Part shown: one piece after another, positions 10,400 through 41,900 of the stretch
Numbering within the stretch: the stretch's first letter is position 1
Layout of the letters: every line of letters starts with the position of its first letter
DNA from: Thalassospira sp.
GTDB lineage: Bacteria; Pseudomonadota; Alphaproteobacteria; Rhodospirillales; Thalassospiraceae
NCBI RefSeq assembly: GCF_002709775.1
Contig: NZ_PAQR01000008.1
Span: forward strand, 62,001-126,000
DNA length: 64,000 nt
Direction: 5' to 3'
Program-made: the position numbers and the translations under genes
The notes under the pieces: generated by a model
Told to the model about the DNA's origin: nothing
Database searches by the model: none
Seen by the model: the letters and a program-made list of their open reading frames with translations, nothing else

Positions 10400-11803
10400 C
10401 TAGAACGGGACATCTATGGTGAGAAGCCCAGTATAATCCCCGTGTGCCACTTCATAGGTCAGCTTGCGCCGCAGCTCGAAACTGACACTGGCCGGGAAGC
10501 GGCTCCATTGCTGGGTAATCCCGCCGCCGGTATCAAGATAAAGGTTGGTGCTCTCAACACTGACAAACGGTTCCAGCGTCATCGAGGACCGTGCAACATC
10601 ATGGATCAGCGAGAATTCTGAACGGATGCCGGTAATGTCCTCAGCCCCGGTGGCAATATCGCGAAAGCCTTGAATGCTGAGATCGAAGTTTAACGGGTCA
10701 TAGGCATATTCCGACCCGGCATAATATCGTGTCGATCCGCTGCGCCCGTAATTCTGATTGAGAAGCGAGATGGTCTCTTCCTGCCCGGCAAACGGGATGA
10801 TCTGATGATTGCCAAGGGCAAGGCGATAGCGCGCCTCGACCGAGGCATCAAAAAGCTGCGTGGTTGCCGTGCTACCCGCCACAAGCCCGCCATCTGTTGC
10901 GCGCGCTGCGTCAACATATTCGCGTGCCGTGATCACATCGCCATCAAGCTGAATGCTTAGCGGCACCGCACCGAATTCGTAATTAGACCCAAACCCGATG
11001 CTGTTTGAAATGCTGGTACTATCAAGCGTTTCCGCATAGCGCAGATTATCGGGCACAGTGCCAATCGGCGATTGGGCGATAGTGCTTTGACCCAGACTGA
11101 TGCTGCCGCGCAGGTTAAACCAGTCCGTGACGCGCGAAACGAAATAGGGCGACAGGGCCAGGTTGTTTTCGCGGTAATGCAATTGCCGGGTGCCGGATTC
11201 TCCAACCGTGCTGCCCCAGCCAATGCCAAGGCCCAGAACCAACCCGTCATCCACCAGATAATCAACACCACTATCAATCGAGATGGTGTCACCACTTAAG
11301 CCCGGGTCATAGCCCGACCCGGTGATGCGGTTTTCAAGTTCTGAATGATTGCCCGCAAGCCAGATGCTGATCGGGGCATGCGCACTGCGCGACTGGGCGG
11401 GGAAGGTGCCTGCCGCACTATCAAGATCGAGCCTGCGCGCCAGTGATGAAAGCGCGCTCCGACCGGCGAGAATTTCACTTGGCGTCGGGGTGCCGGTGCC
11501 AAATTGCAGATGTTCGGTCGCCTGTTGCGGCGGGGAGACGTAGCCATCAAACAGCAGCGGCGCCACCCGGCTGTCATAAAGGTCCTCGTCCATCTTGTCG
11601 TAAAGGCGGTTCATGTGGCGGCGCTGGTTTTCGCTGCGCGTCGTGGTCTTGTTGCGCAAAACCGGCGCATCCGGGCGCGCGCCATCATCGCTGGCCAGGG
11701 CCTGCGTTATGATGGGAGGCTGACTTGTCTCGCGGCGAATGACATAGGCGATGGCCGCCAGACAGACCGTGGCAATCACGGCAGTTTGAAAAGGCCTGTG
11801 CAT
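10400..11803 (-). CDS. Autotransporter-type outer-membrane beta-barrel protein, function unknown
   Basis: A 467-aa protein. Residues ~6-23 form a hydrophobic signal or anchor (TAVIATVCLAAIAYVI). Then comes a Ser/Thr/Arg-rich stretch to about residue 190. The rest alternates hydrophobic and polar residues in beta strands (for example YFVSRVTDWFNLRGSISLGQ and HQIIPFAGQEETISLL) and ends in LLTIDVPF. A terminal Phe is the usual BAM signal. This resembles the autotransporter beta domain (~260-280 aa) with only a short upstream segment instead of a large passenger. No enzymatic motif is seen. The start codon lies only 32 bp from the inverted-repeat element at 11836, so its promoter may be inside or beyond that element. 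Confidence 0.7.
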   Translation of the reverse strand: MHRPFQTAVIATVCLAAIAYVIRRETSQPPIITQALASDDGARPDAPVLRNKTTTRSENQRRHMNRLYDKMDEDLYDSRVAPLLFDGYVSPPQQATEHLQFGTGTPTPSEILAGRSALSSLARRLDLDSAAGTFPAQSRSAHAPISIWLAGNHSELENRITGSGYDPGLSGDTISIDSGVDYLVDDGLVLGLGIGWGSTVGESGTRQLHYRENNLALSPYFVSRVTDWFNLRGSISLGQSTIAQSPIGTVPDNLRYAETLDSTSISNSIGFGSNYEFGAVPLSIQLDGDVITAREYVDAARATDGGLVAGSTATTQLFDASVEARYRLALGNHQIIPFAGQEETISLLNQNYGRSGSTRYYAGSEYAYDPLNFDLSIQGFRDIATGAEDITGIRSEFSLIHDVARSSMTLEPFVSVESTNLYLDTGGGITQQWSRFPASVSFELRRKLTYEVAHGDYTGLLTIDVPF

Positions 11804-11864
11804 CTGACGTTAAACATCTCTGTTCTGGTCAGTGATTAGGGTCAGGCCTCATTGATTTGAATGG

Positions 11865-11961
11865 CAGACGTTATGTTTGTGAAATCCAAGGAAAATCCCG
11901 CAGAGCGGGTCGGTATCCCGGGCAAGGGGTTTGACGCAGGAGTTCGCAAACATAACGTCTG
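11865..11961. repeat. Internal hairpin A of the inverted-repeat element
   Basis: Arms of 19 bp with one mismatch enclose 59 bases. These contain a smaller perfect hairpin (CCCGC AGA GCGGG at 11897-11909). Confidence 0.75.
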
Positions 11962-11970
11962 TCCTTCGGA

Positions 11971-12065
11971 TTGACCGGATTTGCACGGTCTACTTTGTCG
12001 CAAAGCCTTGAAAGATGCATATCTTCCTGTGGTTTTGCTCCGCGTATCCGCACAAATCCGGTCAA
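11971..12065. repeat. Internal hairpin B of the inverted-repeat element
   Basis: Perfect 13-bp arms TTGACCGGATTTG and CAAATCCGGTCAA enclose about 69 bases, which include a near-palindrome AAGATGCATATCTT. Confidence 0.75.
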
Positions 12066-12244
12066 CCATTTAAACCAAATCAATGTGACCTGACCCTAAC
12101 CTGACACAGGAAAATGCACGGAATGTGGAGAAAGACGGGCAGTTCTGCCCCATTGCTGGCTGAGGTGCCAAACGCGTGGCAAAGGTTGCGATCCGAGCCA
12201 ATAGAATGTTGCGTCAAAAACCAAGCCGCGCTAGAACGCTTTGC

Positions 12245-12260
12245 ACCGGCCTTGGCCGGT
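12245..12260. repeat. Small GC hairpin 13 bp upstream of tRNA-Leu
   Basis: ACCGGC CTTG GCCGGT is a perfect 6-bp stem with a tetraloop. It has no T tract and may be a discriminator-side structure or chance. Confidence 0.35.
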
Positions 12261-12273
12261 TCCAACGCGCGTC

Positions 12274-12360
12274 GCGGGCGTGGCGAAATTGGTAAACGCA
12301 GCGGACTTAAAATCCGTCAGCCCTAAGGCTTTGCCGGTTCAAGTCCGGCCGCCCGCACCA
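12274..12360 (+). tRNA. tRNA-Leu (anticodon UAA), CCA encoded
   Basis: The 7-bp acceptor stem pairs GCGGGCG with CGCCCGC and is followed by A and CCA. The D arm contains GGCGAAATTGGTAAACGC. The anticodon stem GCGGA/TCCGT holds loop CTTAAAA, giving anticodon TAA. A long variable arm (CAGCCCTAAGGCTTT) marks a class II tRNA, and the T arm has GGTTCAAGTCC. All fit tRNA-Leu reading UUA/UUG. No integrase or duplicated tRNA end is seen beside it. Confidence 0.96.
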
Positions 12361-38915: not shown

Positions 38916-41900
38916 ATGACGCGTTCAGCACCAAAGCGTATCCGTAAACTTCTGGTCGCCAACCGTGGCGAGATTGCGATTCGTGTTTTGCGAGCCGCCA
39001 ACGAACTTGGCATTCGCACAGTCGCGATCTTCTCTGACGAGGACCGTTTCGCCCTTCACCGTTTCAAGGCTGATGAAAGCTACACGGTGGGTAAGGGCAA
39101 CAAACCCATTCGTGCCTATCTTGATATCGAGGACATCCTGCGCGTTGCGCGCGATGCCGATGTCGATGCCATCCATCCGGGCTATGGCTTCCTGTCGGAA
39201 AATCCCGACTTTGCCGATGCCTGCGCCGAAGCCGGCATTCAGTTTATCGGCCCGGACTCGGAAGTCATGCGCACCCTTGGCAACAAGGTCTCTGCGCGCA
39301 ATCTGGCCGAAAGTGCCGGTGTGCCGGTCATGCCAGCCTCAAGTGCGCTTCCCGAAGACATGGCAGAAGTCACCCGCATTGCCGAGGATATCGGCTATCC
39401 CCTGATGCTGAAAGCCAGCTGGGGCGGCGGTGGCCGTGGCATGCGCGTCATTGAAAATGGCAAGGATCTGGCGGGGCAGGTGCTGGCCGCACGCCGCGAG
39501 GCCGAGGCCGCCTTTGGCAATGGCGAGGTTTACTTTGAAAAGCTGATCCGCCGCGCCCGCCATGTCGAGGTACAGCTGCTGGGCGATACCCACGGCACCC
39601 TCGTCCATCTTTATGAACGTGATTGTTCCGTGCAGCGCCGAAATCAAAAGGTCGTCGAACGCGCACCGGCTCCGTACCTGAATGATGACCAGCGCAAGGA
39701 AATCTGTGACGCGGCCATTCGTCTGGGCAAGGCGGCCAATTACGTCAATGCCGGTACGGTCGAATTCCTCATGGATGTCGACACATCCAAATTCTATTTC
39801 ATCGAGGTCAACCCGCGCATTCAGGTCGAACACACCGTCACCGAATGCGTCACCGGCTTTGACCTGGTCAAGGCACAGATTCTGATCGCCCAGGGCGGGC
39901 GCATCGGTTTCCCGTCCGAAACCGGTATCCCCTGGCAGGAAAAGATCAAGCTGCGTGACCACGCGCTTCAATGCCGCATCACCACCGAAAACCCGGAAAA
40001 CAACTTTGTCCCCGATTACGGGATCATCAAGGTTTACCGTGGGGCCAACGGTTTTGGCATTCGTCTGGATGGCGGCACGGCCTATTCCGGGGCGGTGATC
40101 ACGCCGTTCTATGACAGCATGCTGGAAAAGGTCACCGCATGGGGCAGCACCCCGCGCGAGGCCGTGGACCGTATGGATCGTGCGCTGCGTGAATTCCGTA
40201 TTCGCGGTGTGGCCACCAACCTTGCCTTCCTTGAAAACCTGATCAATCACCCGAAATTCCGCGCCGGTGAATACACCACCCGCTTCATTGACGAAACGCC
40301 CGACCTGTTCAAGTTCGTGCGCCGTCGTGACCGTGCGACCCGTTTGCTGCGCTTCATCGGTGAAGTCGCGGTCAATGGCAACCCGGAAGTCGAAGGCCGC
40401 GTGGTGCCGACCAATCTGCATGACCCGGTCATGCCAAAATCAATCGATCTTGGCGAAATTCGTCCGGGTACGAAGCAAAAGCTTGATCAGTTGGGCCCCG
40501 AAGGTTTCTCGCGCTGGATGAAGGATCAGGAACGCGTCCTGATGACCGACACCACCATGCGTGATGCCCATCAATCGCTTCTGGCAACCCGCATGCGCAC
40601 CTATGACATGCTCGAAATTGCGCCTTACTACGCGCATGGTCTGCCGGAACTGTTTTCGATTGAATGCTGGGGCGGCGCGACGTTTGACGTTGCCATGCGC
40701 TTCCTCAAAGAAGACCCGTGGGATCGTCTGGTCAAGCTGCGCGAACGTGTGCCAAATATCTTAACCCAGATGCTGCTGCGCGCATCGAACGCCGTTGGTT
40801 ATACGAACTATCCCGACAATGCCGTGGATTACTTCGTCAAGCAGGCGGCTGAACACGGCATGGATGTCTTCCGCGTGTTTGATAGCCTCAACTGGGTTGA
40901 AAACATGAAGGTCGCGATGGAATCGGTTCTCAAAACCGACAAACTCTGCGAAGCGACCATCTGTTACACCGGCGATATCTACGATACCAAACGCCCGAAA
41001 TATAACCTTGATTACTATGTGAATATGGCCCGGGAACTTGAATCCTCCGGTGCCCATATTCTCGGTCTCAAGGATATGGCGGGTGTCCTGCGTCCGGCGG
41101 CTGCGCGTGAACTTGTCACAGCCCTTAAGGACACGGTCAATATCCCGATCCACTTCCACACCCACGACACCAGCGGCATTTCCGCCGCCACCGTGATTGC
41201 GGCCATTGATGCCGGTGTTGATGCGGTCGATGCGGCGATGGATTCGATGTCGGGTCTGCCATCGCAGCCAAACCTGGGTTCGATTGCCAATAACTATATC
41301 GGTCAGCCGCGTGATCCGGGTCTCAAGACCGAGGCGCTCAAGGAAGTCTCGACCTATTGGGAACAGATCCGCCGTTACTATGCCGGTTTCGAAAGCGACA
41401 TCCGCAGCGGCACCTCGGACGTTTATGTCCATGAAATGCCGGGTGGCCAATACACCAACCTGCGTCAGCAGGCCCGTGCATTGGGGATCGAGGATCGCTG
41501 GCCCGAAGTCTCCAAGGCCTATGCTGCGGTCAACCGCATGTTTGGCGATGTCGTCAAGGTGACGCCAAGCTCCAAGGTTGTTGGCGACATGGCGCTGATG
41601 ATGGTGACATCCGGTTTGTCTGAGGAAGACGTTCTTGATCCCAAAAAGGACATCACCTTCCCCGACAGTGTCATTTCCTTCTTCCGGGGTGAAATCGGTC
41701 AGCCGGTTGGCGGCTTCCCGCCCGCCCTGCAGCGCAAGGTGCTGAAGGGTGGCGAGGCGCTTACCGATCGTCCGGGCAAATCACTGCCGCCGATTGATTT
41801 CGAAGCCACCCGCAAGGAAATCGAAAAGAAGACCCATCGCAGCAACATCACCGACGCCGAGGTTGCATCCTATGTGATGTATCCCAAGGTGTTCCTTGAT

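Follow-up and report, generated by a model that had tools for sequence, protein, structure and literature searches.

The locus and the fold of the element

The element described here lies in a window of Thalassospira DNA (the whole stretch that was analysed, 64,000 nucleotides), between a reading frame on the minus strand at 10400-11803, the start of which is 32 bp away from the element, and a tRNA-Leu(taa) gene at 12274-12360. The protein of the reading frame is a 467-aa outer-membrane beta-barrel, which matches the autotransporter-type domain PF03797 (Autotransporter) over residues 148-279 and has no Pfam match in its N-terminal part. An earlier note on this DNA had placed a 264-bp element at 11836-12099; the element stands, and its borders were refined to a stretch of 258 bp with TA flanking both ends (Table 1). 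As seen in the multi-copy alignment and the size table, the usual size of the element is 263 bp, 5 bp of the left terminal repeat being lost from the window copy.

The inverted repeats on which the note was built are present. The 24-nt terminal inverted repeat (11836-11859/12076-12099) is 92% complementary, and two further inverted repeats, 11859-11887/11939-11967 and 11971-11988/12048-12065, are nested inside it. Folding of the 264 nt yielded energies of -127.7 kcal/mol for the plus strand and -129.6 kcal/mol for the minus strand, compared to shuffle means of -74 and -71 (z = -12.8 and -11.8; 0/200 shuffles), so that the fold is far above chance on both strands. A folded junction was thereby upheld; its proposed three-way form was not, as the mini-hairpin between the arms makes the junction four-way. 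No transposase is found inside the element, in agreement with the note, and the list of open reading frames of the window contains none of at least 80 aa wholly within it; a coding potential of the interior was set aside by inspection on this ground. An integron attC site was also set aside by inspection, an attC-like layout not being seen.

Table 1. Parts of the element in the window, with the evidence for each.
Feature	Position	Strand	Evidence
Element, GGGTC...GACCC, 258 bp	11839-12096		Multi-copy alignment, size table; covariance model R1, 271 bits
Left TA, target duplication	11837-11838		Empty sites, flank statistics
Right TA, target duplication	12097-12098		Empty sites, flank statistics
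Left terminal inverted repeat and inner part of stem P1	11839-11864	+	Inverted repeat; covarying helix 1
Right terminal inverted repeat and inner part of stem P1	12066-12096	-	Inverted repeat; covarying helix 1
Arm 1, hairpin motif M	11865-11961	+	Arm model R2 match 11865-11960 (+), 67.7 bits, E 2.3e-17; covarying helices
Mini-hairpin TCC-TTC-GGA between the arms	11962-11970		Consensus fold; covariation, e.g. TCT..AGA in relatives
Arm 2, motif M on the opposite strand	11971-12065	-	Arm model R2 match 11971-12065 (-), 47.4 bits, E 2.5e-11

Copies, empty sites and remnants

A DNA search of the genome to which the window belongs revealed 18 near-full-length copies of the element, with 77-100% identity; they form two subfamilies, which differ in the sequence of the stems and keep the pairing. 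The element was found in 26 of the 29 Thalassospira genomes, this one included, and none of the 31 other genomes of the order was matched by DNA. A motif scan of named genomes yielded 53 loci, distributed over Nitratireductor, Phyllobacterium, Mesorhizobium, Stappia, Hongsoonwoonella and Thalassospira. No match was obtained in phage records or in E. coli genomes.

For the detection of empty sites, the genus was queried with the flanks of twelve copies, joined to each other. The site was found intact and empty in many Thalassospira species. Sites such as L012 and L005 carry a single TA when empty and two when filled, one TA being mutated in L005; at some other empty sites, the junction has lost or altered a few bases beyond the TA. 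Three species have the element at the site of the window copy, and in four others this site is empty. Among copies with intact termini, 77 of 116 have TA on both sides, and the commonest flank context is CTA...TAG. The feature is a mobile element and not a unique locus. The characters of a MITE (miniature inverted-repeat transposable element) were all found: a size of 258-265 bp, a non-coding interior, a 24-nt terminal repeat, dispersed copies, empty sites and a TA target duplication, to which may be added ends that are common to transposons. The MITE reading of the earlier note is thus borne out; both the multiple copies and the empty sites for which it had asked are there, and a single unique locus devoid of covariation, the outcome it had named as speaking against its reading, is not what we found.

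Several shortened forms were also observed. Three relics in the same genome (L056 at C54:67269, L055 at C53:55260 and L052 at C1:35204) have ends and little or no interior; that at L056 is a ~50-bp hairpin with both ends present. Short scars, such as CTAGGGTCAGGACCCTAG, occur in Nitratireductor aquibiodomus NL21 (L165, L166 and L167) at a frequency about equal to that of full copies, and also at L157 and L172. Judged by their sequence, the scars would fit either a hairpin deletion between GACC direct repeats at the hairpin base or an excision footprint. Forms of ~160 bp in Nitratireductor and Mesorhizobium (L076, L092, L102 and L108), present in several copies, precisely lack arm 1 and have intact ends. 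In the five host genomes searched for pairs of 13-bp ends, such pairs were ~268 or ~163 bp apart only, solo ends belonged to scars or partial copies, and no long autonomous copy bounded by two such ends was found.

The tRNA-Leu gene next to the window copy is incidental, since none of 18 other copies in the genome has a tRNA within ~1.5 kb. In another genome, of 1.5 Mb, a one-arm form (L235, 1501-1673) stops 4 bp short of a tRNA gene, probably by chance. Crude reading-frame calls around 85 copies gave 24 codirectional, 15 antisense, 26 divergent and 20 convergent arrangements, an orientation relative to genes that is near random.

Ends and probable transposase partner

The first 21-26 bp of the end in its Nitratireductor form are present on many plasmids of Alphaproteobacteria. 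Several of these matches coincide with the termini of ~840-bp insertion sequences that carry an IS5-family annotation, in Rhizobium etli (L188) and Sphingomonas aerolata (L193); in pNGR234a and in Novosphingobium, inverted ends likewise lie ~840 bp apart. The protein of L193 matches DUF4096 and DDE_Tnp_1 and carries the NCBIfam name IS5. Members of the IS427 group of the IS5 family (e.g. IS1248 and ISPpa6; here L188 and L193) are 832-865 bp long and mostly generate 2-bp duplications (PMC3281130). Their terminal repeats are common to the element, the Nitratireductor form of which is identical to them over 21-26 bp, and ends so shared were also seen at L187 and L189; in Thalassospira, L205 and L219 have similar ends. 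Both kinds of element have a 2-bp TA duplication and a CTAG-like target; however, the IS427 group encodes a two-frame transposase in its 832-865 bp, whereas the element, at 258-265 bp, carries no gene, and its folded interior is unrelated. As the outer ~20 bp and the TA duplication match those of ~840-bp IS5-family (IS427-group) elements, its movement in trans by a DDE transposase of the IS5/IS427 type appears well supported by sequence comparison.

Transposases with DUF4096 are encoded in 14 of the 29 genomes of the genus, and some of the elements that carry them have similar ends (TTAGGGTCAGGACCCATTGATC in L205, CTAGGGTCAAAACTCATTAACA in L219). The IS427-like elements of sister genomes (L195, L197, L205 and L219) display several related kinds of end, and are a possible pool of helper transposases. 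In the assembly to which the window belongs, which is 93% complete, no DUF4096 or matching transposase was found, and the copies in this genome are therefore probably resting. For the other end types, plasmids yielded no partner insertion sequence, or no clear one. A partner of the IS630/Tc1 type, prompted by the TA and CTAG, was rejected: the genome has no DDE_3, and the DDE_3 loci of the genus are without the element's ends.

Conservation of the fold and symmetry of the arms

Covariation was tested in an alignment of 53 diverse copies. Double compensatory changes were present in 66 of the 77 consensus pairs, and double-changed cells numbered 692, compared to 187 in shuffles, none of 500 shuffles reaching the observed value in any measure; sliding the partners by one base destroyed the signal. 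Covariation was strong in the three stems for which the earlier note had proposed this check, as well as in the mini-hairpin. Some Phyllobacterium copies contain the same interior inside a different terminal repeat, and a copy on a Phaeobacter plasmid is recognisable almost solely by its fold. The window copy and 26 loci of its relatives had no match in Rfam.

Searched with the covariance model R1, 385 genomes of the class yielded members in 23 (21 of 276 genera), mostly at full length; a sample of 399 across the phylum added four genomes that belong to other classes. Full-length members are near 258-272 nt in size. Their ends are unrelated to one another (GGGTCAGGACCC, GGTCATGGACTCATAAAT, AGAACCTATCCCAGTAATATT, GAGCATGATC, GAGCCTGTCTCATAAAA and others), and many adjoin TA. 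A copy of the twin-hairpin core is also present in the genome of the window itself, on contig C16 (L355, ~1451-1724), with entirely different terminal repeats, AGAGTCTGTTCTGTTTAGCTTG...CAAGCTAAACAGAACAGACTCC; it had been missed by the DNA search. Within the window, a weak partial R1 match at 40124-40169 on the plus strand (13.7 bits, E 0.0026, model positions 57-102, 72% GC) probably reflects a GC-rich hairpin that has no relation to the element.

Both arms consist of one ~96-nt hairpin motif, M, set in opposite orientation, with a length of 94-100 nt in 37 arms. Its order is outer stem, (GAT.C)-AGGA, stem, GCAG, apical stem, TCAAG, stem, GACG..GCAG and outer stem. The homology of the arms is based on the alignment of the 37 arms and on matches to the arm model R2; in pairwise comparison, arm 1 and the reverse complement of arm 2 were on average only weakly above shuffles (mean z 1.6). 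R2, the training set of which included relatives from within the genus, has only 11 pairs and is thus mostly a sequence model; it had matches in 29 of 240 genomes and 27 of 203 genera. Short one-arm forms occur as well. Size, fold and loop sequence of the interior are thus kept across many genera in which stems and terminal repeats differ completely, and since at least 20 other genera have the hairpin pair, with transposon ends of quite another kind, it probably does something itself.

Pairing in the arms and in resident copies

G-U accounts for ~3-4% of pairs. One count of pair cells, inflated by shared ancestry, gave 116 G-U, 68 A-C and 3,718 Watson-Crick, and the class-wide count gave 112, 67 and 2,992, respectively. 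The prediction for an RNA was set before counting: arm 1 should prefer G-U on the plus strand and arm 2 on the minus strand. The G-U:A-C cell counts, which are inflated by shared ancestry, agreed with this prediction (28:11 in arm 1, 25:47 in arm 2). Events were counted separately; cluster-tree events were in moderate agreement with it (34:20 in arm 1, 32:54 in arm 2, 34:38 in the P1 control; pooled 88:52), and the tree-wide event count, made on fewer inner pairs, displayed no G-U strand bias. Over all counts, the G-U signal is weak and not consistent.

Resident copies were compared in 15 independent pairs occupying the same site, with the structure taken from the cluster consensus; a count of paired and unpaired positions from each copy's own fold was biased, and the consensus-structure count replaced it. 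Differences amounted to 3.3% at paired positions, 7.0% at unpaired positions and 7.2% in the flanks. The changed pairs were 8 compensated, 25 G-U, 19 A-C and 21 other. The arms stay paired in resident copies, which show hardly any RNA-type tolerance, and the conserved loops evolve no more slowly than the flanks in these relatives with a common site. Either template-switch repair of the palindromes or selection on folded DNA would keep the arms in resident copies; as the loops are conserved over the class, repair alone is probably not the whole story. With G-U at so low a share, G-U and A-C about equal in resident copies and gene orientation near random, the pairing looks more like that of palindromic DNA than that of RNA.

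Proposed mechanism and its alternatives

We consider it probable that the element is a MITE moved by an IS5-type transposase, the conserved twin-hairpin core of which acts as folded DNA. An IS5-type DDE transposase would move the element in trans. In place of a decayed transposase gene, the interior consists of two inverted ~96-nt copies of motif M around the mini-hairpin, with the terminal repeats closing it as P1. When single-stranded, during replication or excision, or when supercoiled, either strand would be expected to fold into the same two-arm structure, bringing both ends of the element together in P1. A conserved host factor may then bind the folded DNA and aid the movement or persistence of the element. 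Because the twin-hairpin module outlives changes of the terminal repeat, it would appear to work independently of any single transposase. We infer this role of the hairpin pair. Folded DNA is favoured over RNA, as it agrees better with the perfect Watson-Crick pairing of the arms and with the similar frequencies of G-U and A-C.

One alternative is a mobile structured RNA: read-through from either side would produce the same two-arm RNA, the loops of which would bind protein or RNA, and selection would act on the RNA. The class-wide conservation of the loops and covariation of the stems are consistent with this, and so is the G-U strand bias in the cluster-tree events and cell counts; however, the scarcity of G-U, the unbiased tree-wide count, the parity of G-U and A-C in resident copies, the near-random orientation to genes, and the lack of a promoter-like site in 11700-12300 and of an Rfam match all argue against it, and we regard it as unlikely. 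An ordinary MITE with a functionless interior, in which the arms are complementary solely through template-switching repair in hairpins, is quite unlikely. Such repair would account for compensatory changes that are also seen on terminal branches and among resident copies, and for the equality of G-U and A-C, and the hairpin deletion scars show that the hairpins form or slip; it leaves unexplained, though, both the conserved unpaired loops and the constant ~96-nt length of the arms across a class in which the ends are unrelated.

The two remaining explanations concern the enzyme and the neighbouring gene. The earlier note had suggested a REP-associated or IS200-type enzyme, and two inverted hairpins with internal loops do resemble the layout of a REPIN. 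The resemblance goes no further: the TA target duplication and the terminal repeats are those of IS5/IS427, whereas elements of the REPIN or IS200 type would insert with no such duplication, and a Y1 transposase (PF01797) is present in only 3 of the 29 genomes of the genus, being absent from that of the window and 25 others. Movement of a REPIN- or PATE-like element in single-stranded form by a Y1 (IS200/RAYT) transposase is thereby largely refuted, and hardly credible. The suggestion that the element carries the promoter of the beta-barrel gene, as a local regulatory element, draws on its position 32 bp upstream of the start codon and its retention at the site in three species. It is very improbable: no sigma-70-like site was found in 11700-12300, four sister species have this gene region without the element, and the other copies occur in all gene arrangements.

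Relation to known elements

MITEs are usually seen as stripped-down copies of one insertion sequence, with a narrow host range and an empty interior; here it is the interior that is conserved, and the ends can be exchanged. The element can be likened to prokaryotic MITEs that an insertion sequence moves in trans, such as MITEPye1 of Paracoccus yeei, with its IS1182-family ends; these are short and transposase-less, with the ends of resident insertion sequences and a foldable transcript (PMC11578231). MITEs of the MITEPye1 type, however, have been described from one host and with one type of end (PMC11578231), whereas the element has one interior phylum-wide behind unrelated ends. We tentatively suggest, with less confidence than in the mechanism above, that these may be phylum-wide mobile twin-hairpin modules, an ancient folded core of which, with one hairpin to be read from each strand, repeatedly swaps terminal repeats and exploits unrelated IS5-type transposases, the hairpin being read by a conserved factor as single-stranded DNA or, in either orientation, as RNA. 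If confirmed, this would mean that a non-coding folded module can persist throughout a phylum by switching transposases, and it would add an unlisted structural family that is directly open to searching, probing and knock-out.

No description of the twin-hairpin family was found in the open literature; single members may have been named earlier in subscription papers or in ISfinder. Among published elements, QMITE2 of Coxiella and the MITEs whose transcripts can fold come nearest. REPINs and BIMEs, which are moved by RAYT (TnpA_REP), likewise consist of two hairpins in inverted orientation; the element differs from them in its TA duplication, its IS5-type ends, its ~96-nt arms instead of short REPs, and its host without Y1. 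Br-REP1 and Br-REP2 of Bradyrhizobium are repeats that lie in 3'-UTRs and are, at one site, transcribed from both strands (PMC5082802). They are multi-palindromic like the element; by eye the consensus given there is unlike motif M, and the consulted part of the source describes neither terminal repeats nor a TA duplication (PMC5082802).

QMITE2 (CbsR16) of Coxiella burnetii is a structured MITE of 150-190 bp with 7-11-nt direct repeats (PMC5896051), compared to the TA duplication and 258-265 bp of the element. Relatives of QMITE2, 83-100 nt long and with a conserved stem and a variable tip, have been reported in alphaproteobacteria (PMC5896051); likened by description alone, they are close in size to the ~96-nt motif M.
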